Part shown: piece by piece, positions 2,501 through 31,571 of the stretch | Layout: each line of letters opens with the position of its first letter | Position numbering within the stretch: the first letter of the stretch is position 1 | DNA from: an uncultured Pseudomonadota bacterium | GTDB lineage: Bacteria; Pseudomonadota; Alphaproteobacteria; UBA9219 | Length of the DNA stretch: 33,381 bases | Assembly (NCBI GenBank): GCA_903869345.1 | Contig: CAIPYM010000060.1 | Location: forward strand, 1-33,381 | Reading direction: 5' to 3' | Position numbers and translations under genes: made by a program | Notes under the pieces: model-generated | Told to the model about the DNA's origin: nothing | Database searches by the model: none | What the model saw: the letters and a program-made list of their open reading frames with translations, nothing else

Positions 2501-3013
2501 ATGTTGAAAATCTCCGAGATCACAACCGAGGTCTGCACCGAGCGCGTTGTGAGCGCTCTTTCGGAAGTCGTCGGTCCTGGCAAGCCGTGGACCTACGAAC
2601 GCGCTGCCGAGGCTCTGGGGATCGAATACAAAACCCTCGCGGGGTACGCGCTTGGCCAGAGTCTGCCGCGCTTATCGACGCTGCTTCGCATGTTTTCGCT
2701 CTGGGGGCCGGTGTTTTCCAACCGCGTGTTGCGCCTGTCCGGGCTCGATGGGTGTGGTCGCCAAGAAGCTGTGCGCGTCAACGATTTTGCCCTGAACGGC
2801 GGGGCCGCCGCGCTGATCGGTCGGATCGGCGAGGCCCTGCGCGACGGCCACATTGATCACCGCGAGCGGGCCCAAATTTTGAAAGAAGCCCGTGGCCTCC
2901 AGGAGATTTTGAACGCCTGGGTTGCCACCAACGACGCGCCCTCCGGAGATTTTCCGATCCCCGGCACGGTGGACATGGCAGCCCCTTCTGACGCCTCAGC
3001 CCGGCGGCATTAG
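2501..3013 (+). CDS. CII-like phage HTH regulator
   Basis: A 170-residue protein preceded by GAGG seven bases before the ATG. Residues about 30-60 (YERAAEALGIEYKTLAGYAL, then GQSLPRLSTL) look like a helix-turn-helix in which the second helix reads the DNA. The middle contains a short helical segment of the sort found in CII-like proteins that act as oligomers, and the C-terminal 25 residues are probably disordered. The place between the early operator and the primase fits a regulator of early transcription or replication. The family assignment rests on position and HTH only. Confidence 0.6.
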   Translation: MLKISEITTEVCTERVVSALSEVVGPGKPWTYERAAEALGIEYKTLAGYALGQSLPRLSTLLRMFSLWGPVFSNRVLRLSGLDGCGRQEAVRVNDFALNGGAAALIGRIGEALRDGHIDHRERAQILKEARGLQEILNAWVATNDAPSGDFPIPGTVDMAAPSDASARRH

Positions 3014-3088: not shown

Positions 3089-3211
3089 ATGCAGTTACGA
3101 CAACTCCGGCGGCGAAAGGCGCTGTTCCGTGATCGCCTGTTCTGGCCCGTCGTCGTTTTGATCATCGCAACGGTTCTTGGCATTGAGATTGCCGCGTGGG
3201 TGGCGCTGTGA
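3089..3211 (+). CDS. 40-residue single-pass membrane protein
   Basis: The ATG at 3089 follows a purine-rich ribosome site (GGGGGAAGAG). The first 15 residues are strongly basic (MQLRQLRRRKALFRDR) and are followed by one hydrophobic helix, FWPVVVLIIATVLGIEIAAW, running nearly to the end. That is the pattern of a small inner-membrane protein with a cytoplasmic basic tail. The stop overlaps the GTG of the primase gene (GTGA at 3208-3211), so it is cotranscribed with the replication genes. Small phage membrane proteins of this kind can act in superinfection exclusion or anchor replication, but nothing here decides between these. Confidence 0.6.
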   Translation: MQLRQLRRRKALFRDRLFWPVVVLIIATVLGIEIAAWVAL

Positions 3212-4221
3212 GGGCCGAGCTGTTCCGCGAGGGCGCGGCACACGGCGTGCGCTACGCCCGGACCACCTCGCCCCATGAGATTGAGCGGATCAAAAAGTCC
3301 GTCAACCTGGTGGAGCTGGTCGGGCGCACAGTGAAGCTGGTGCGCGACGGCGCGGAGTTTAAGGGCCTCTGCCCGTTCCACGCGGAGACAACGGGAAGTC
3401 TGGCCGTGAACCCCAAGAAGGGGTTGTTTCACTGCTTTGGGTGTGGCGAGTCGGGCGACGCGATCGCATGGGTTCAAAAGACCGACCACGTTTCGTTCCC
3501 CGAGGCCCTGCGGCGTCTTGGGGCCAACGAGACGGGGCGCGGGGGCGCGGCGTTACCGTTGCCGTTGGAGACCCCTCCGGCGGTTGATCCGGGCGAAGAG
3601 GCCGAACGCGCCAAGCGCGTCGCGGCGGCCAAGAAGATTTGGGAGGAATCGCTCCCCGCAACGGGGACGCTGGTGGCAACGTACCTGGCCGCACGGGGGC
3701 TCGCGGGCGTCAAGATCCCGCCCACTGTTCGGTTCCATCCTCGCTTGTGGAGCGCCGAGGCCGCGCGGACATTGCCGGGGGTTGTCGGCGCGGTGTTCTG
3801 CCGGAACGCACTTGTCGGCGTCCACCGGACGTTCCTGCGCCCTGACGGGTCGGGCAAGGCGGACCTGAAGAGCCCCAAGAAAATGCTGGGCTCGTGCCAG
3901 GGCGGGCATGTGTGGTGCTCGCCCGCTCGCGTTGAAAAACGCCTGATCGTGGCCGAGGGGATTGAGACCTCTCTGTCCGTCGCCAAGGCCGTCCCGAACG
4001 TGCCCGTGTGGGCGGCGCTTTCGTTGGGGAACATGGGGGCCGACGTACCGGAATCGGTCGCGGACCTGGTCCTGTGCGCGGACGGCGACAACAAAGACCC
4101 CGCCGCTGCAGACCGCGTTCTGGCCCATGCAGAGGAAAAGCATCGACGCCCCTGGCGCGTCGTTCGGGTCGCGCGGCCCGATGTGGGCAAGGATTTTAAC
4201 GACATGGTTCGGGGGGTGTGA
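3208..4221 (+). CDS. Phage DNA primase, CHC2 zinc finger plus Toprim domain
   Basis: With GTG at 3208 the protein has 337 residues. A CHC2-type zinc-binding domain shows C55, H58, C76 and C79 (CPFHAE and FHCFGCG). The Toprim domain has the catalytic Glu at 250 (LIVAEGIETS) and the acidic DGD at 292-294 (LCADGDNKDP). Together these mark a primase that makes RNA primers for phage replication. It lies directly upstream of a P-loop helicase gene, a common phage replication pair. GTG at 3196 is an alternative in-frame start; 3208 was preferred because it overlaps the preceding stop. The C-terminus ends soon after the Toprim domain, so helicase activity is supplied by the separate gene. Confidence 0.9.
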   Translation: MRAELFREGAAHGVRYARTTSPHEIERIKKSVNLVELVGRTVKLVRDGAEFKGLCPFHAETTGSLAVNPKKGLFHCFGCGESGDAIAWVQKTDHVSFPEALRRLGANETGRGGAALPLPLETPPAVDPGEEAERAKRVAAAKKIWEESLPATGTLVATYLAARGLAGVKIPPTVRFHPRLWSAEAARTLPGVVGAVFCRNALVGVHRTFLRPDGSGKADLKSPKKMLGSCQGGHVWCSPARVEKRLIVAEGIETSLSVAKAVPNVPVWAALSLGNMGADVPESVADLVLCADGDNKDPAAADRVLAHAEEKHRRPWRVVRVARPDVGKDFNDMVRGV

Positions 4222-5249: not shown

Positions 5250-5439
5250 GAATGACTTCTCCGCCTGTGTGGGCCGCGTCAACGCTGTTTTAGCACAGGC
5301 CGGGCCGCCTGACACAAAAATTGCGGCCCTCTTTCAGCTGGCATCCACAAGAAGCGACGAGGCGCTGATGGCGATCAGCGCGGAGCTCGTCACGTCAAAA
5401 ACACTCACGTCCAGAGACCAGCAAAGGGGAGACTTATGA
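5242..5439 (+). CDS. Small hypothetical protein upstream of the helicase
   Basis: GTG at 5242 is preceded by AAGGGGG with a nine-base gap, and an in-frame stop lies just upstream (5236-5238), so this start is well fixed. The 65-residue product is unrecognised, with a helical N-terminal half and a polar tail. The stop overlaps the helicase ATG (ATGA at 5436-5439). The first eight bases overlap the start of the divergent DUF4145 gene, so each gene's ribosome site lies at or inside the other's coding start. It could belong to the inserted cassette. Confidence 0.6.
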   Translation: MDTNDFSACVGRVNAVLAQAGPPDTKIAALFQLASTRSDEALMAISAELVTSKTLTSRDQQRGDL

Positions 5440-7148
5440 CAAACGCCGAGCCCGTTCAAGCCATTTCAGATCGCGTCGCCGGGGCCGAGGTGTATGTCTA
5501 CAAAAGCCCGAACGACGTGATGGACGGGTGCCCGGTCCAACCCCTGGGCATGAACAACGGGCACTATTTTTTCGCCTCCCCCGACGGTGAAGTGCGCGAA
5601 CTGGCCGCGCGGGATTTTTCATGGCGGCAAATCCTCAGCCTGTTCGCGGGCGACGCGTCGTGGCTCTGCAAGACGTTTCCCAAAATTCGTAAGGGCTCGG
5701 AAGACCCGCTGTGGTTCAACGAGACCTCGGCGGCGGAAGGCTTGATGCGGGCGTGCCACCGGCGCGGGTTGTTTTCGTCGGAAACGCCCCTGCGCGGCCC
5801 TGGCGTGTGGCGCGTTGGAAGCCGCGCCGTCCTGCACGCGGGCGACGGGATTTACTATGACGGGGCGTGGCTGCCTCCGGGGCAGCTGTTGGGGGATGCG
5901 ATCTACGTTGCGCGGCCCGCGTTGGCGCGGCCTGATTTTAAGTTTCCCCTCGGTTTGGATGCGACACGCGAACTGCGGGCATGGCTCAACGCCTGGTCGT
6001 TTGAAGACCCACGCGATGCGGACCTGTTGTTCGGGTTTTTGGGAGCGGCGCTGCTCGGCGGGTTCCCGACATGGCGCGTTCACGCGATTGTATCCGGTGA
6101 GCGCGGGTGCGGTAAATCGTCGCTGGGCGAATACCTGGAGGCCTGTTTTGGCCCCATGTGTACGAGCCTGAACAACTACACTGAGGCCGGACTTCGTCAG
6201 TCGCTGCGCAACGAGGCTCGCCCGATCCTTCTGGATGAAGGCGAGGGCGACGACGATTCGCGGCGCATGAGTTCGGTGATCACGCTGCTCAGGACGCTCT
6301 CCAGTGGCGAGGGCGCACGGATCGTGCGCGGGTCGTCGGGCGGGCAGGCCCAACGAACAACCCTCATGGGGTGTGTGATGCTGCTGGCGATCAACCCGCC
6401 GCACCTGGAGCCCCAAGACCGTTCACGGATTGTGGAATTTGCGCTGAAGCCTCCCCACGTGAGCCCCACCAGCGCCCAGGACCTTGAGTTTTTCAAGACC
6501 GAAGCCGCCAAGCGGTCCACGGCCTTGCGGGCCCGCGCGTTGGTCGGTGCCCCGCACTTTTCGGCGGCCTTCCAGACGTACCGCAAAGCCCTGGTCGCGG
6601 CGTCGTGCGACGGACGGCAGGCCGATATGTGGGCAACCCTTCTTGGCGGTAGGTCCATGCTGTTGGATGAACGCCCCCCAACCCCCGAGCAGGCTGACAC
6701 AGTCGTCGCCAGGTACGCGGATCGGTTGGAGGCCATGAAGGCGGAGGACCGCGAGGCCTCGGACGGCAAGGGCTGCCTGCATCATTTGTTCGACACGATG
6801 ATGGACATCTACCAGTCCAACCACAAACTCACGGTCGGGCAAATGCTCGCCGCTTGCCTTTTTGACCCCCTTCTCCCCGATGCCGCATTGCAGGCCTACG
6901 GTCTGCGCATCATGCGTGGCGAGGATATCGGGGATACGGCCCTGGCCGTGCTGAGTGACCATGTCCAGCTGCGGAAAATCTACGCCACCACGCCGTGGCG
7001 CTGCGGCGGATGGCACAACTCGCTGAAGCGATTGCCAGGGGTCAAGCCGTCTGAACACCCCGTCCGTGTGGGCGGCGTGAAGCGGCGCGTGGTCTTGATC
7101 CCGTTTTCGATGCTGCCGCGTGAGAAGCCTCCGCCGGGTGATCTGTAA
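5436..7148 (+). CDS. Phage replicative helicase/ATPase (P-loop, D5/VirE-like)
   Basis: A 570-residue protein. The Walker A motif is GERGCGKSS at 221-229 and the Walker B motif is PILLDEGE at 263-270; a conserved Asn segment (LLAINPP) follows at about 313. This layout, with a ~200-residue N-terminal region and a central P-loop domain of the D5/VirE type, is usual for phage and plasmid helicases that work with a separate primase. It should unwind the origin and load the replication fork. The upstream primase and the repeat-rich gap downstream support this. The exact helicase superfamily is not settled from the sequence alone. Confidence 0.82.
   Translation: MTNAEPVQAISDRVAGAEVYVYKSPNDVMDGCPVQPLGMNNGHYFFASPDGEVRELAARDFSWRQILSLFAGDASWLCKTFPKIRKGSEDPLWFNETSAAEGLMRACHRRGLFSSETPLRGPGVWRVGSRAVLHAGDGIYYDGAWLPPGQLLGDAIYVARPALARPDFKFPLGLDATRELRAWLNAWSFEDPRDADLLFGFLGAALLGGFPTWRVHAIVSGERGCGKSSLGEYLEACFGPMCTSLNNYTEAGLRQSLRNEARPILLDEGEGDDDSRRMSSVITLLRTLSSGEGARIVRGSSGGQAQRTTLMGCVMLLAINPPHLEPQDRSRIVEFALKPPHVSPTSAQDLEFFKTEAAKRSTALRARALVGAPHFSAAFQTYRKALVAASCDGRQADMWATLLGGRSMLLDERPPTPEQADTVVARYADRLEAMKAEDREASDGKGCLHHLFDTMMDIYQSNHKLTVGQMLAACLFDPLLPDAALQAYGLRIMRGEDIGDTALAVLSDHVQLRKIYATTPWRCGGWHNSLKRLPGVKPSEHPVRVGGVKRRVVLIPFSMLPREKPPPGDL
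5448..5461 (+). repeat. 14-bp direct repeat, right copy inside the helicase gene start
   Basis: Identical to 4572-4585; encodes the EPVQA segment of the helicase N-terminus. The two copies flank the DUF4145 gene and the 65-residue gene. Confidence 0.7.
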
Positions 7149-7172
7149 TCGTTTTCCTGTCTGAATGTTCCT

Positions 7173-7437
7173 GGGACGTTTTGCGCTGTCCCGCGACCGT
7201 CCCACAACTGTCCCGTCCCGGTGTTTCACCATGAAAAACAACAAGTTACCAACATTTCACGGAGACCGGGACGGCCCAACAGGTGGTCCTCATGTGCGCG
7301 TGCGTGCGCGATGCACACAAACGGGTGTCCCAGGTGTCCCTACCGTCCCACTGACTCTCTTTTCCTTAAAAAGAAGAGATATAACAAGGGGTTGCGTCGG
7401 GCTTTTGGCGGGACGGCCTGCGGGACGTTTCCGGGAC
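7173..7437. repeat. GGGAC/GTCCC cluster in a 315-bp non-coding gap, candidate replication origin or regulator-binding array
   Basis: The gap 7149-7463 has no convincing gene. The pentamer GTCCC or its complement GGGAC occurs 12 times: at 7173, 7188, 7199, 7210, 7215, 7268, 7327, 7336, 7345, 7410, 7422 and 7433. Random expectation is about one. Spacing is regular in places: 11 bp between 7188, 7199 and 7210 and between 7422 and 7433, and 9 bp between 7327, 7336 and 7345. The form GGGACGTT appears three times. An AT-rich stretch with a TATAAC box (7380-7385) lies between the second and third groups. Location after primase and helicase genes fits an iteron-type phage origin, but a transcription control region is equally possible. 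Confidence 0.6.
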
Positions 7438-7463
7438 GTTACTAACTCAACAAGGAGATCAGC

Positions 7464-8000
7464 ATGAACGCCACAGCTCTTGCCAGAAAACCCGCCCAGG
7501 GGCGATTTCGGTCCTCTCGCTCGCGCCCTGTGCCCGAACGCATGGGTGACGGGCCCACGCCCGAACGTCGGGCCCAAAATGGCGGCACCGTGGCCGAGCC
7601 CCAGGCCGACGGCGCTAACCGCCGTGTCCTCGTCCACCGGGCACGGTACGAATGCTGGCTCGACGTTTACCGCCGCGCCGGTCGCCTGACCGAGGCCGAG
7701 TTTTCGGCGGGCCTCCGGTTCCGCACGGCGTGGCTCACCCACGTCGAGGGGATCAAGACACGGGATTCCATGGACCTGGCCGACGCGGCCCTTTCGGGAG
7801 GAGGGCCAACGTTGACCCCGTCTGAACGGCGCAGCTGGGCCGAGGCCACAATCCGCGAGGCCTACGCGACACTCACGGTCTGGCAAGCGCTCGTCGTTGA
7901 CGCCGTGTGCGGGTGTGACCAGTCGGCAGGCAATGCGGCCCGCATGAAGACGTTTGTGCGCGGCCTTGAGGCCTTGGCGAAGCATTGGGGCCTGCAGTGA
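7464..8000 (+). CDS. Hypothetical protein, possible late-gene regulator
   Basis: A 178-residue protein with a clear ribosome site (AAGGAG, 7446-7465 region). The first ~50 residues are basic and disordered-looking. The rest is helical with conserved-looking aromatic residues (RARYECWLDVYRRAGRLTEA; LTVWQALVVDAVCGC). I do not recognise the family by motif. It sits between the replication genes and the packaging operon, the place where many phages carry a late transcription activator or antiterminator, and a candidate promoter with a structured leader follows directly. That role is inference from position. Confidence 0.65.
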   Translation: MNATALARKPAQGRFRSSRSRPVPERMGDGPTPERRAQNGGTVAEPQADGANRRVLVHRARYECWLDVYRRAGRLTEAEFSAGLRFRTAWLTHVEGIKTRDSMDLADAALSGGGPTLTPSERRSWAEATIREAYATLTVWQALVVDAVCGCDQSAGNAARMKTFVRGLEALAKHWGLQ

Positions 8001-8654: not shown

Positions 8655-9212
8655 ATGCCGCGAGGTCGCACTCCGAAATCATTGGCCTTGAAAGCGGCCC
8701 AGGGGAACCCCGGTCGGCGGAAGAGTCGTGCGAAAGTGGCGGCGATCCCGACGATCACCGGAACGTTTGAGACCCCGAGCGGCCTGTCAGCGGGGGCGAA
8801 GCGGATCTGGCAGCAGCTGTCGGTTCACTTGGCGAGCGCGAACTTCGTGCGCCCGACGGACATGTTCGCCTTGGCGCGGTATTGCGAGCACATGTCGACG
8901 TGGTGGGCGAAGACGGCGGAGATCCAACGGGACGGCGAGACGGTCGTCACGAAGAGTAAGCACGTTGAGATGATCCGGCTTCACCCGGCGTTCCTTGTCC
9001 GCGAGCGCGTGGAGCGCCACCTTGTGGAGATGGAGGACCGGTTCGGACTGAACCCGTCCTTCCGCCTGCAGATTGTGAACAGGTTTTTGAACCAAGGGCA
9101 GACGCCGAGCGACGGACTTTTCTCGAACCCCGCCCCGACCGAGTCGAGCGAGAACGAGCCGCCATCCCCGATTGGCATTCTTCACGGCGGTCAACCCCGT
9201 GGCCTCAACTGA
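8655..9212 (+). CDS. terS: Terminase small subunit, P27 family
   Basis: A 185-residue protein with the N-terminal features of the P27 group: MPRGRTPKS, KAAQGNPGRRK, then a helical segment (GAKRIWQQLSVHLASANFVR) and ALARYCEHM. Small terminases bind the packaging site and deliver the genome to the large subunit. The AGGG ribosome site precedes the ATG by about 11 bases. The C-terminus overlaps the start of the large subunit, as is usual for this pair. Confidence 0.9.
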   Translation: MPRGRTPKSLALKAAQGNPGRRKSRAKVAAIPTITGTFETPSGLSAGAKRIWQQLSVHLASANFVRPTDMFALARYCEHMSTWWAKTAEIQRDGETVVTKSKHVEMIRLHPAFLVRERVERHLVEMEDRFGLNPSFRLQIVNRFLNQGQTPSDGLFSNPAPTESSENEPPSPIGILHGGQPRGLN

Positions 9213-10830
9213 TTTGCAACCCCCGACGTGCCCCCCAGGAGGTGAACGCCACGGGGCGACGTTTGACGCAACATCCGCCGACGTTGCCGTTGACTTTTTC
9301 CCGACGTACCTCCGCCACACCGAGGCCGAGTGGTGGGGAAAACCGTTCATTCTCTCCCCTTGGCAGCGCGACCTTGTGAGGGCGGCCTTCGGATGGAAGC
9401 GACGCGACGGAACACGGCTCATCCGCCAGGTTTACCTCGAGGTCCCGCGCAAAAACGGAAAGACGGAGTTCGCGGCGGGCCTTGCGCTCTTGATGCTGCT
9501 CGCGGAGGGCGAGCCCGGAGGCCAAGGGTATTCAATGGCCTGCGACAAAGAACAGGCAAGTATTGTTTTCAATAAAGCCTGCACCATGGTGCAACTTTCG
9601 CCAACCCTTCGCGGCCTCTGCGAGACGTTCAAAACCGCCATTTTCTGCCCGCAACTCAGCGCATCGTTCAAGCCGCTCTCGTCCAAACCCTCGTCCAAGC
9701 ACGGCTTCTCGCCGTTCTTTGCGATTGCCGACGAGCTGCACGAATGGCCGACCGGTGAGCTTCACGATGTGGTCCACAAAGGCACCGGAGCCCGCCGTCA
9801 ACCGCTCGAGATTTTGATCACCACCGCCGGAGTCCCTGGCGAGGGCTACGGATGGCAGATGCACGAATACGCACAGAACGTGGCCGCCGGGATCGTGGAA
9901 GACCCGACGTTTTTCCCCCTGATCTTCGCCGCCGACCCCGACGACGATTGGCGCAGCCCCGAAACCTGGGCCAAGGCCAACCCGAACCTCGGGGTTTCGA
10001 TAAAAAACGAATACCTGGAACAGGAAGTGACCCGCGCCCAGGGCTCCGCCCACCTGATCGCGGACTTCAAGCGCTACCATTTGAACCTCTGGAATTCGCA
10101 CACCGAAGGAGGCCTTGATATCAACGCCTGGGACGCCTGCGGCCTTCACCCCGTGAAGCTGGAGGACCTCAAAGGCCGCCGCTGCTACGGCGCACTGGAC
10201 CTTTCCTCCACGACCGACCTGACGGCGCTCACGGTCGTCGCGGAGCGCGAGGACGGCGGGTTCGACGCGTGGTGGCATTTCTGGATACCAACCGAAAACC
10301 TTGCCGAACGCATCCGCCGCGACCGCGTTCCGTTTGACCGCTGGATTGCCGAAGGGCTTATCACCGCGACCGAAGGCAACGTCGTGGACTACGACGCGAT
10401 CCGCGCGATGATCTCGGGCGGCGTGGAGCACGACGCCTTCACCGACGAACCGATTTGCACCCAAATTGAACTCGCCGAACTGGCGATTGACCGCTGGAAC
10501 GCGACGCATTTGATCACGCAGCTGATGTCCGACGGCGTGAACGTCGTCGCCTTCGGCCAGGGCTACGCCTCCATGTCGGGTCCCTCCAAGGAATTCGAAC
10601 GCCTCATTGGTGTCAAGCAGCTGAATCACGGGAAAAACCCCGTCGCGCGGTGGATGGCCAGTTGCGTGACGTTCAAAACCGACGGCGCGGAAAACATCAA
10701 GCCGGTCAAACCCGACCGGAGGCGCTCCACGAAACGGATTGACGGAATCGTCACCCTCATCATGGCTCTCGCCCGCGCGACCGCCGCTGTGCGCGAGGAC
10801 GACACGGTTCCCGACATCATTCTTTTGTAA
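9199..10830 (+). CDS. terL: Terminase large subunit
   Basis: With GTG at 9199 the protein has 543 residues. The ATPase domain shows Walker A PRKNGKT at 83-89 and Walker B FFAIADE at 173-179. A C-terminal nuclease domain begins with GALDLSSTTDLTAL, giving the first metal-binding Asp. The enzyme pumps DNA into the prohead and cuts it. TTG at 9172 is an alternative start, but GTG 9199 has GGCGG eight bases ahead and gives a normal 14-base overlap with terS. The family is the HK97/P27-linked terminase group. Confidence 0.93.
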   Translation: MASTDLQPPTCPPGGERHGATFDATSADVAVDFFPTYLRHTEAEWWGKPFILSPWQRDLVRAAFGWKRRDGTRLIRQVYLEVPRKNGKTEFAAGLALLMLLAEGEPGGQGYSMACDKEQASIVFNKACTMVQLSPTLRGLCETFKTAIFCPQLSASFKPLSSKPSSKHGFSPFFAIADELHEWPTGELHDVVHKGTGARRQPLEILITTAGVPGEGYGWQMHEYAQNVAAGIVEDPTFFPLIFAADPDDDWRSPETWAKANPNLGVSIKNEYLEQEVTRAQGSAHLIADFKRYHLNLWNSHTEGGLDINAWDACGLHPVKLEDLKGRRCYGALDLSSTTDLTALTVVAEREDGGFDAWWHFWIPTENLAERIRRDRVPFDRWIAEGLITATEGNVVDYDAIRAMISGGVEHDAFTDEPICTQIELAELAIDRWNATHLITQLMSDGVNVVAFGQGYASMSGPSKEFERLIGVKQLNHGKNPVARWMASCVTFKTDGAENIKPVKPDRRRSTKRIDGIVTLIMALARATAAVREDDTVPDIILL

Positions 10831-28755: not shown

Positions 28756-28976
28756 TTCGTTGTGAAGCTCCGTCCCCACCGCCGCCCTTGCGAGTCCCTG
28801 AAGGGGACGAGGCAATCCATAGGGGACTCAGTCCGTGAGGCCTCCCACTTGGCTCCGCCGGACTCCAACGTGAATTGCTTCGTTGGCGCCGGGCCTGCGG
28901 CCCGTGGCCGCCTCGCAAAGACGACTCCCTTTGACTCCAGTCCCCTCCCCCCGCGAGGAGGAAGGGGGTCTGTGCC

Positions 28977-31571
28977 CTACCCCCCGCGTAGGCGACGCCA
29001 CCAGCCGTTCTTGGGCGGTTGGTCGCTGGGGGGATTGACGAGCCCGTTCTGTCCCGAAAAAGGCAGGGACGAGGACGTGGATTCGCGATCCCTCGGGGTG
29101 GTGTCGAGGTCATAGACGCTCATCGGTGCCGAAGGAATCGGGGGGCTCGGAATAAACGTTGCCGCAGGTGTCACCCTTACAGGGGGCACGGCAACGGCGT
29201 TGCCCTCACGAGGAGCCTCGCCACGGGGCGGCGATTGCTCGCCTTCACGTGCAAACCCCTCACGCCCACCGCTGCGACGACGGCCCCCGCGACGTCCACG
29301 ACGACGACGGTTGTTCGCGGCGTTGGGGTCAGCGGAATCACCCCCCCCAGCTTGTCCCGGAGCACGATCCGAAGCACCGGGCAGTCCCTCGGGGTTCAAG
29401 GACTCGTTGATGTCCGGCGAGGGGGCGGTACTTCCTTCACGACGGAAAGGAACTTGAGCCCCGCTTTCGCGGTGCATCTCACCCCGAGGGCGACGACGTC
29501 CTCCACCCTCACGACCGCCTTCTCCTCGGCCACCTTCACGTCCGCCGCGACGGTTGTCCTCGCGTCCTCGGCCCGAAGCCACAGGCGGTGCGCCCACCGT
29601 TCGGGGGAAGGCGCGGCTATCATCATCGGTAGCTTGCACATGCGGGGTGCGATCATCACCTTCCCCGCCCGCATGAGAAGCCAGGGCCAGAATTTGATCG
29701 GTATCCACGGCAGGGCCCGAACCGCTCGACCCACCGCCCGCGCGAGCACGTTCGATGCGGTAATCCGGCGGCACGAGCGAGTCGTCCTGGCCGATGAAAA
29801 TCGCCAGGTTGTAACGACGCTCAAGGTCCGTCATCGCCGCGCGTTTCTGATTGAGCAGGTAGAGCGCGACGGACGTTGTCACGCGCACATCGAGGGACCC
29901 CGAGCGCCCCTTGATGCCCTCTTCCTCCAGCGCACGCAGAACGGACAACGCCGCCGAGTCCACGGACCGCACGTAGCCAAGGCCCGCGCAGTGCGGGCAT
30001 TTCTCAAAGTTAGTTTCGTGCAGGCTGGGGCGCAGACGCTGGCGCGAAAGCTCCAGAAGCCCAAAGATGGAAATCCGCCCGATCTGCACGCGTGCGCGGT
30101 CGTGCCGCATCGCGTCCTTCAAGCGCCGTTCGACGGCCAGGTTGTTGCGCCCGTCTTCCATGTCAATGAAGTCAATGACGATGAGCCCGGCAAGGTCCCT
30201 AAGCCGCAGCTGGCGAGCGATTTCTTCTGCCGCTTCCAAGTTGGTCTTGAGCGCCGTTTCCTCAATGTGCCGCTCACGTGTCGCGCGGCCCGAGTTGACG
30301 TCAATCGCGACAAGTGCCTCGGTGGGGTTGATGACAATGGAGCCCCCCGAACGCAATTGCACGGTGGCGCTGTACAAAGAGTCCGTCTGCTTTTCCACGT
30401 TGTGGCGGAAAAACAGCGGTACGGGATCCGTGTAAAGCCTGATTTTCTCGACCTGATCGGGCATCAGGGCTTCCATGAACTCGCGGGCGCGAGCATAGCC
30501 GCCCTCCCCCGCCACCAGAATCTCGGCGATGTCCGGTGAGAACAAATCGCGGATCGAGCGTTTGATGAGGTTGGCTTCTTCGTAAATCATCGCAGGCGCA
30601 CTGGATCGCAGCGTTTCCTCGCGGATCGTGTCCCACAGGCGCATCAGGTAATCGAGGTCCCGCTGAATCTCGGGCGGGTTTTGCTCAAGACCTGCGGTGC
30701 GAAGGATAACCGCCATGCCCTCGGGCAAAGACAGCTGGTCCAGAATTTCCTTGAGACGTTTGCGATCCTGCGGGCCCGTGATCTTGCGCGACACGCCCCC
30801 CCCACGCTCGGTGTTGGGCATCAGGACGCAGTACCGCCCTGCCAGCGACAGGTACGTCGTGAGCGACGCACCCTTGGAGCCGCGCTCCTCCTTGACGACC
30901 TGCACCAGCATGACCTGGCCGCGCGTGAGGACTTCTTGGATCTTGTAATGCGGCAAACGCGGAGCGCGAACGGGACGTTCGGTTTCGCCGCCCACGCTTT
31001 CGGGTTGCTCAAGCGGGGCCTCGTCCGTCGGCAATAAGATAGCCCCTTCCAAGGCCGTCGCCTCACCCTGCAGCGGAGGAACGGCGGCGTTGCCAAAATC
31101 GGTGATCAGGCCAACGTTCGTGTCACCCTCGCCCATCAGGGACGTTGGCGGCAAAGAAACACCCGAGCTTTCAGCCGACGCGACGAAAGGCATCGACGAT
31201 GCAGCGGGCCTTTCCGACAAGACGTCCGTCGTCGGCAAGGGCAATGCGGGCGACGCCCCGTCGTCGTTCAGGCCCTCCGGCGCGGAGGGGTCGTCGTGAG
31301 GACGATCGGCAACGGGAATTCGGAAGTAGTCGGGATGAATCTCGGGGAACGGCAAGAAACCGTGCCGATTGCCGCCGTACTCCACGAACGCCGCCTGAAG
31401 CGAAGGTTCGATTCGCACAATTTTAGCGAGGTAGATGTTCCCCCGCAAAATGGGCTTGCTGGCGAGGGCAAAATCGAGATCATCCAAACGGGAAGAGCCG
31501 TCGCGTCCCCCCTCAACAATCGCAACGCGGGTTTCTTCGGGATGCGTCGCATCCACTAACATACGCTTCAT
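28977..31571 (-). CDS. rne: Ribonuclease E
   Basis: ATG 31571 with CAGGAG upstream gives 864 residues; an earlier in-frame start at 31613 is rejected. The protein starts MKRMLVDATHPEETRVAIVE, typical of alphaproteobacterial RNase E. The catalytic metal-binding aspartates are D424 (VAIDVNSGRA) and D467 (LIVIDFIDM), 43 residues apart as in E. coli D303/D346, and the Zn-link cysteines are C525/C528 (CPHC), again in E. coli spacing. The offset of ~121 residues is due to an insertion in the S1 domain (about residues 91-205). The C-terminal third is Arg/Gly- and Pro-rich, the unstructured platform for RNA and degradosome partners, ending WWRRLRGG. It starts RNA decay and processes rRNA and tRNA. 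Confidence 0.95.
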   Translation of the reverse strand: MKRMLVDATHPEETRVAIVEGGRDGSSRLDDLDFALASKPILRGNIYLAKIVRIEPSLQAAFVEYGGNRHGFLPFPEIHPDYFRIPVADRPHDDPSAPEGLNDDGASPALPLPTTDVLSERPAASSMPFVASAESSGVSLPPTSLMGEGDTNVGLITDFGNAAVPPLQGEATALEGAILLPTDEAPLEQPESVGGETERPVRAPRLPHYKIQEVLTRGQVMLVQVVKEERGSKGASLTTYLSLAGRYCVLMPNTERGGGVSRKITGPQDRKRLKEILDQLSLPEGMAVILRTAGLEQNPPEIQRDLDYLMRLWDTIREETLRSSAPAMIYEEANLIKRSIRDLFSPDIAEILVAGEGGYARAREFMEALMPDQVEKIRLYTDPVPLFFRHNVEKQTDSLYSATVQLRSGGSIVINPTEALVAIDVNSGRATRERHIEETALKTNLEAAEEIARQLRLRDLAGLIVIDFIDMEDGRNNLAVERRLKDAMRHDRARVQIGRISIFGLLELSRQRLRPSLHETNFEKCPHCAGLGYVRSVDSAALSVLRALEEEGIKGRSGSLDVRVTTSVALYLLNQKRAAMTDLERRYNLAIFIGQDDSLVPPDYRIERARAGGGSSGSGPAVDTDQILALASHAGGEGDDRTPHVQATDDDSRAFPRTVGAPPVASGRGREDNRRGGREGGRGEGGREGGGRRRPRGEMHRESGAQVPFRREGSTAPSPDINESLNPEGLPGASDRAPGQAGGGDSADPNAANNRRRRGRRGGRRRSGGREGFAREGEQSPPRGEAPREGNAVAVPPVRVTPAATFIPSPPIPSAPMSVYDLDTTPRDRESTSSSLPFSGQNGLVNPPSDQPPKNGWWRRLRGG

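Follow-up and report, generated by a model that had tools for sequence, protein, structure and literature searches.

An iteron array downstream of a phage helicase gene, a putative replication origin, changes together with one helicase residue

Why a non-coding gap of 315 nt, packed with one short repeat, should lie directly after a helicase gene was the question raised by this phage locus. The gap (7149–7463) is part of the window, by which we mean the whole 33,381-nt stretch of DNA that was analysed, and is bounded by the stop of the helicase gene (7148) and the start of the next gene (7464). A sequence-only reading had interpreted it as an iteron origin on the basis of twelve GGGAC/GTCCC sites in roughly tenfold excess, and both figures were confirmed by our recount. 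GGGAC was found at 7173, 7268, 7410, 7422, and 7433 (5 sites) and GTCCC at 7188, 7199, 7210, 7215, 7327, 7336, and 7345 (7 sites), against 1.05 sites predicted from the window-wide density (111 copies in all), an excess of ca. 11-fold. Dinucleotide shuffles of the gap (n = 2000) yielded a mean of 1.29 sites and never more than 5. An equal density of GGGAC across the phage DNA would have refuted the reading and was not seen, as the next-densest stretch more than 400 nt from the gap held 7 sites in 315 nt (around 28768–28772). Long open reading frames overlap that stretch (28772–29070). In the 1,738,116-base host assembly, a closely spaced GTCCC triple occurred at only 3 places, all of them triplets of the gap; the reversed control pattern gave 2 matches. 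Mechanically called open reading frames also cross the gap (7165–7467, plus strand, 100 aa; 7290–7985, minus strand, 231 aa) and were taken as chance, with no test behind that assumption. Rfam and tRNA scans of the window returned no match.

The array (7173–7437, unstranded) was annotated as a putative origin from the motif count, the shuffles, and the repetition of its place and layout in relatives. Its sites fall into four groups. Group 1, the outer left (7188–7219, plus strand), comprises GTCCC at 7188, 7199, and 7210 in 11-bp steps with an extra copy at 7215, beside which the GGGAC at 7173 is a lone reverse copy. Group 2, the inner left (7262–7272, minus strand), is degenerate, with one exact GGGAC (7268) and a one-mismatch GAGAC (7262), where relatives often have two or three exact copies. 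The middle gap holds a 20-nt alternating purine/pyrimidine run, CATGTGCGCGTGCGTGCGCG (7291–7310, unstranded), recognized from the sequence and from the four-group arrays described below. Group 3, the inner right (7327–7349, plus strand), consists of GTCCC at 7327, 7336, and 7345 in 9-bp steps, and is followed by a low-GC stretch (7359–7388, unstranded; 27% GC) made up of a pyrimidine/purine tract and TATAAC, a candidate unwinding element. Group 4, the outer right (7410–7437, minus strand), has GGGAC at 7410, 7422, and 7433 in 12- and 11-bp steps. The spacings of 11 and 11 bp and of 9 and 9 bp given by the sequence-only reading were correct, with the 12- and 11-bp steps of group 4 to be added; the sequence it had found three times was GGGACGTT, at 7173, 7422, and 7433, and its AT-rich TATAAC stretch is real and lies between the third and fourth groups.

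The upstream gene (5436–7148, plus strand) encodes P0001, a helicase of 570 aa assigned to PHROG 21086, with a Walker A motif GERGCGKS and, by annotation and fold model, an AAA+ SF3/D5-like fold. A Pfam search with P0001 gave no match. The full model had a mean pLDDT of 84.6, and its best fold match was SCCmec Cch (5dgk; Z 16.6, rmsd 5.8, 340 residues), with MCM, poxvirus D5/E5, and SaPI5 Rep ranking below (SaPI5 Rep, 7om0: Z 12.4, rmsd 6.9, 315 residues). Foldseek with the same model returned 5dgk at 1.6e-08 and 7ola at 5.7e-07, and a search of profile A8 against PDB sequences found neither Cch nor SaPI Rep up to E 1. P0001 therefore qualifies as an AAA+ SF3/D5-like initiator at the fold level only, and hexamer formation is inferred. 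The C-terminal domain (residues 433–570; 6732–7145, plus strand), putatively the part that reads iterons, was modelled alone with a pLDDT of 90.2. A fold search with this domain alone gave nothing at E < 0.001; its best Z, 4.7 to TcpK of pCW3, was below 5 and so was not counted as a match. Its weak matches, headed by TcpK, include many DNA-binding domains, and the comparison with the Rep_3-type tandem winged-helix protein RepE54 reached a Z of only about 2.

A DnaG-type primase with a CHC2 zinc finger, DUF7146, and Toprim_3 was identified by domain search in a separate gene (3196–4221, plus strand). The primase is its own gene in many relatives as well, while in others (e.g., L005, L069, L070, and L071) the helicase frame is long enough for a primase fusion, and relatives such as L069 and L070 have long single proteins whose annotation or size points to a primase-helicase fusion. 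Elsewhere in the window are genes for terminase, portal, major head, tail sheath, baseplate, and tail fibre proteins, so that the DNA represents a tailed phage with a contractile-type tail. Its host was inferred to be an alphaproteobacterium, as Zavarzinia and Tistrella belong to the same class.

To place the array in a wider context, 107 non-redundant helicase loci were collected from whole genomes, viral contigs, genome contigs, phage records, and plasmid records; 105 could be scanned, and 2 were ended by a contig edge. P0001 as sole query found no close relatives in viral or genome contigs, nor did query A2 in viral contigs. Most relatives had a non-coding gap after the helicase stop, packed with one short repeat in both orientations, and the repeat differed from lineage to lineage. 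The pentamers observed were GTCCC, GTTCC, GTTAC, GTTAG, GTTGC, GTAAG, GTCAC, GTAGC, GTCAG, GTACC, GTTGT, GTCTC, GTCTA, GTCGT, GTCGC, GTGAG, GTTGG, GTTCT, and GACCC, with GT plus three variable bases as the shared frame. The earlier proposal to look for the same motif beside related helicases was thus met in part: the array was conserved, but the literal GGGAC was missing from most relatives. Its absence there would have been the wrong refutation, because what is conserved is the array, while the pentamer is particular to each lineage.

When the best GTNNN pentamer per 350 nt was scored between −30 and +1500 of the helicase stop, arrays of at least 8 copies were found in 73/105 loci, compared with 3/98 matched upstream control stretches; at a looser threshold of at least 7 copies, the counts were 79/105 and 11/98. 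This control tests position and not the choice of frame, because the GT frame had been noticed before the control was run. In the remaining 26 loci, no GTNNN pentamer reached 7 copies in the scanned stretch. Among them were short arrays of 6 copies (L011 and L019), non-GT arrays of GACCC (L009 and L013), and arrays displaced further downstream (L046, L070, and L179). No array was found in the scanned DNA of, for example, L018, L058, L071, L073, L074, L077, and L092, and in L078 the array lay upstream of the helicase gene. A scan for unconstrained pentamers told us little, since its controls were swamped by GC-rich coding repeats, with at least 8 copies in 70/104 upstream stretches. In that scan, 68 downstream arrays exceeded their own shuffles, and a GT-leading pentamer came out on top in only 31; most of the non-GT pentamers were shifted phases of the same longer motif (e.g., CACAA in CGTTGTG), and some were GC-rich repeats (e.g., in L046, L076, L106, L129, and L180).

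The layout recurred along with the position. Over 65 arrays, the commonest copy number was 12 (23 arrays), followed by 11 (12 arrays) and 13 (11 arrays), and same-strand neighbours were mostly 8–9 or 11–12 bp apart. Thirty-three arrays had exactly four groups of at least 2 copies each. In these, steps of 11–12 bp prevailed in the outer groups (45/64 in group 1 and 42/56 in group 4) and steps of 8–9 bp in the inner groups (45/47 in group 2 and 53/55 in group 3). Group orientation alternated in 24/33, the longest alternating purine/pyrimidine run fell in the middle gap in 33/33, and the lowest-GC 30-mer fell in the third gap, between groups 3 and 4, in 24/33. The alternating run averaged 19.4 nt against 7.8 nt in coding control pieces and was the longer in 63/65 comparisons. 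The window matches this general layout in part, having both outer triplets, the inner right triplet, the alternating run, and the AT-rich stretch, with the inner left group degenerate. The 9- and 11-bp periods remarked on earlier correspond to the inner and outer triplets, as the general layout has inner steps of 8–9 bp and outer steps of 11–12 bp.

Iteron codes were assigned from DNA alone, and an automatic rule agreed with the assignment in 52/56 cases. Two loci with GACCC (L009 and L010) were left out of the covariation analysis because they lack GT, and the column and tree tests omitted L129, whose C-terminal end was unaligned. In the column test, 489 helicase columns were compared with each variable base in 46 representatives. 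For base 5, the top column was residue 544 (rank 1/489, z 10.1; next 6.6); for base 4, it was residue 549 (z 5.8; next 5.7); and for base 3, no column stood out. The tree test used a helicase-core tree of 67 sequences, without L141, L142, and L182 of the held-out set described below and without L185. On this tree, base 5 changed 14 times and the residue-544 class 15 times, with 11 changes on common branches (p 1.3e-10), and residue 544 ranked 1/517 columns (next column 1.4e-3). Residue 549 ranked only third for base 4 (3.4e-3), so that this second pair is no more than suggestive. Across the 67 sequences, R or K at residue 544 went with C in 30/32, W, Y, or F with G in 11/12, and T with T in 14/14.

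The window combines R544 (codon 7065–7067, plus strand) and K549 (codon 7080–7082, plus strand) with GTCCC, and in the predicted model the two residues lie on neighbouring strands (543–545 and 548–550) of a C-terminal hairpin. A Mantel test of the whole C-terminal domain against the motif was not significant (partial r 0.06, permutation p 0.13). The claim of covariation rests on single columns, because only the stretch 530–564 stood out and not the whole domain.

Residue 544 was also used for prediction in a held-out set of 21 new loci, all sharing less than 90% identity with the earlier loci and each having 8 or more copies and residue 544 aligned; it gave the correct base 5 in 18 of them (failures: L147, L139, and L141). 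A single GTTGT clade accounts for many of the 21; more informative are L163, L167, L174, L183, L178, L179, L143, and L140. For example, L163 has K with GTTGC, though it is 57% identical to a GTTGT relative, and L167 has R with GTACC, though it is 67% identical to a GTCGT relative; in both, residue and base alike differ from those of the nearest relative. The failure L141 would agree if its site were read as ACAAC, with flanks as in its sister plasmids, which was noticed only afterwards. In a later test under a fixed rule, two loci qualified, with a residue call and 8 or more copies. The prediction was correct for L193 (Y, GTGAG) and wrong for L197 (K, GTGGT), the L197 cluster sitting inside an annotated recombinase gene; no array was found in L195, L196, or L198. 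L185 (S, GTTAG) was a no-call under the residue rule.

At the level of sequence comparison, these results showed a conserved array directly downstream of the helicase gene, a recurrent layout, and a tight covariation between base 5 and residue 544. The joint change of the repeat with one helicase amino acid across related phages and plasmids suggests that the helicase itself may be what reads the array. We consider it very probable, in the absence of binding or replication data, that a tailed, probably temperate phage starts its replication at the gap and that the adjacent upstream AAA+ SF3/D5-like helicase is the initiator. The iteron-origin interpretation of the sequence-only reading was therefore upheld by conserved position, architecture, and covariation with the helicase. 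Its remark that no obvious initiator was present did not hold, as the helicase, with a C-terminal hairpin that covaries with the iteron, is a good candidate. The other partners it had put forward found no support: by tblastn in the flanks of the other array-bearing loci, the 7464 product had a homologue in 1/64 and the CII-like protein in 0/64, compared with 50/64 for the primase.

Recognition by the 7464 product, an operator, a centromere, and a packaging site were each weighed and ranked low. That the array is an origin read by another protein, such as the 7464 product or a host protein, with the helicase merely recruited, is improbable. A 7464 homologue does adjoin the array in the host's own family (L011 and, by eye, L009 and L010), but none was found in 63/64 other array loci, and one hairpin residue stood far above all other helicase columns, even though the presence of the helicase was constant by search design. 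We give slightly less credence to operators for a phage repressor or activator of the 7464 gene or of late transcription. The array is upstream of a gene start, and an HTH protein (770–1570) and the weakly CII-like protein (2501–3013) are encoded nearby; however, the array follows the helicase whichever gene is next, the scarcity of CII-like and 7464 homologues speaks against such regulators, and the helicase hairpin and the motif change together. An operator would also be unusual in having a dozen short, symmetric sites arranged about an alternating run.

A centromere-like (parS) site, serving plasmid-type partition of the prophage, would fit with the plasmid-like nature of some relatives and with the ParA- or ParB-like genes of plasmid L142 and phage L071. 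It is nevertheless very unlikely, as a five-gene Arsenophonus plasmid with 14 copies has no annotated par genes and the motif tracks the helicase residue. Covariation with the helicase also tells against a packaging site (pac or cos), the least credible of the four, as does the presence of the array on small plasmids; in its favour is the terminase large-subunit gene (9172–10830) ca. 2 kb downstream.

If the gap is an origin initiated by the helicase, the C-terminal domain of each helicase subunit would bind one GTnnn iteron, and residue 544 on the β-hairpin would read its last base (R or K reading C; W, Y, or F reading G; T reading T). The approximately 12 sites could seat two helicase hexamers in opposite orientation around the alternating run, the number of hexamers being inferred as well. 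The AT-rich flank or the alternating run would then melt, with the site of melting likewise inferred, and the helicase could load itself, allowing the neighbouring primase to start synthesis.

Similar arrangements have been reported for SaPI/PICI elements of Gram-positive and Gram-negative bacteria. In these, the origin lies immediately 3' of the initiator-helicase gene with iterons around an AT-rich region, the primase adjoins or is fused to the initiator (PMC6092414, PMC7581432), and replication of a plasmid in E. coli is reported to be driven by a PICI rep-ori segment (PMC6092414). Our phage resembles these elements in an iteron array directly 3' of the helicase gene, repeats flanking an AT-rich stretch, and a primase gene near the putative initiator helicase, a likeness of sequence anatomy from which origin function is inferred. 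Binding of iterons by the C-terminal domain, as in SaPI/PICI Rep, is supported by the covariation of residue 544 with base 5 but remains an inference without binding data. Unlike SaPI/PICI, the carriers here are complete phages and small linear plasmids rather than satellites; where a PICI satellite has few structural genes and depends on a helper, the window has terminase, portal, major head, sheath, and baseplate genes. The arrays often have four triplets, with 11–12 and 8–9 bp steps around an alternating run, and no sequence match of the helicase was found to SaPI Rep or to the Pfam domains D5_N, DUF927, and Primase_Cterm. Because it occurs in complete phages with a helicase lacking such a match, the locus may work like a SaPI/PICI origin without being one by membership. 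The best reading by analogy is an origin that would act as theirs do, in complete phages and with diverging specificity.

Other systems offer narrower parallels. The isolated C-terminal domain of SCCmec Cch2 (400–538) is reported to bind specifically to what is putatively the origin, which lies downstream of the gene and contains AAGTG iterons (PMC7581432). Cch is the best fold match of our helicase, but the Cch2/Cch system differs in its iteron, in having three repeats only, in its integrated cassette, and in its polymerase-based primase. The phage P4 α protein is a primase-helicase initiator with a DNA-binding domain and a fused primase. In pRN1, the primase-helicase initiator ORF904 also has a DNA-binding domain and the origin is downstream of its gene (PMC4234260). 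A stem-loop takes the place of iterons in pRN1. P0001 is like both as a putative helicase-type initiator with a putative DNA-binding domain; unlike both, its primase is separate, and unlike pRN1, its origin would use iterons. In geminiviruses, close relatives frequently have different iterons, five to six nt long, each interacting specifically with its cognate Rep (PMC12548392). The likeness of short, divergent iterons matched to an initiator is one of concept only, as the geminivirus protein is an unrelated rolling-circle Rep. No description of the iterons of this phage family or of the residue–base pairing was found in the titles and abstract beginnings brought up by searches of the open literature.

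With somewhat better than even confidence, we propose a widespread, undescribed class of origins in proteobacterial and other phages, phage-plasmids, and linear plasmids. Its members would share a twofold-symmetric platform of about 12 GTnnn sites for two hexamers, with one hairpin residue setting the last base; as the pair keeps changing, it could amount to a protein–DNA recognition code that can be read and might sort phages into plasmid-like incompatibility groups. If this is right, the sequence would reveal where many uncharacterised phages start replication and with which initiator, with the partner residue predicting an iteron base, and the SaPI/PICI style of initiation would reach beyond satellites to complete phages and also small linear plasmids. 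The way in which an initiator changes its origin specificity without loss of function would become a question of one residue and one base, open to testing in dozens of natural variants, and a source of compact helicase-plus-origin replicons would be suggested.

In Arsenophonus nasoniae, this helicase occurs together with 13–14 iterons on small plasmids, linear in most records, that have few other genes. In paNv_CH14 (8190 bp), 14 iterons directly follow the helicase, and five genes are annotated (a small protein, the helicase, an HTH regulator, an Rpn nuclease, and a protelomerase), although the gene table is incomplete. Five-gene linear plasmids with helicase and array are consistent with autonomous replication from rep plus ori, replication itself being inferred. 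Co-resident plasmids had different iterons, judging by their repeats alone, as incompatibility would demand: strain aNv_CAN has paNv_CAN18 (GTAAT) and paNv_CAN17 (GTTGT, or ACAAC in the frame of its sisters), and strain aPv has paPv15 (GTTAC) and paPv13 (GTTAG). The rule cannot be strict, because two prophages of one Zavarzinia aquatilis genome (L015 and L044) both have GTTAC. The A. nasoniae plasmids of 8–12 kb (L139, L140, L141, L184, and L185) have protelomerase genes in addition to this helicase, and the gene for a terminase small subunit on some A. nasoniae helicase plasmids hints that they may descend from telomere phages. The replicon is also that of a Phaeobacter phage-plasmid with genes for an acyl-homoserine-lactone synthase and for autoinducer binding (L143, 3611–4844), and a synthase with a LuxR-type gene is present on paNv_CAN17 (L141, 7037–8677).
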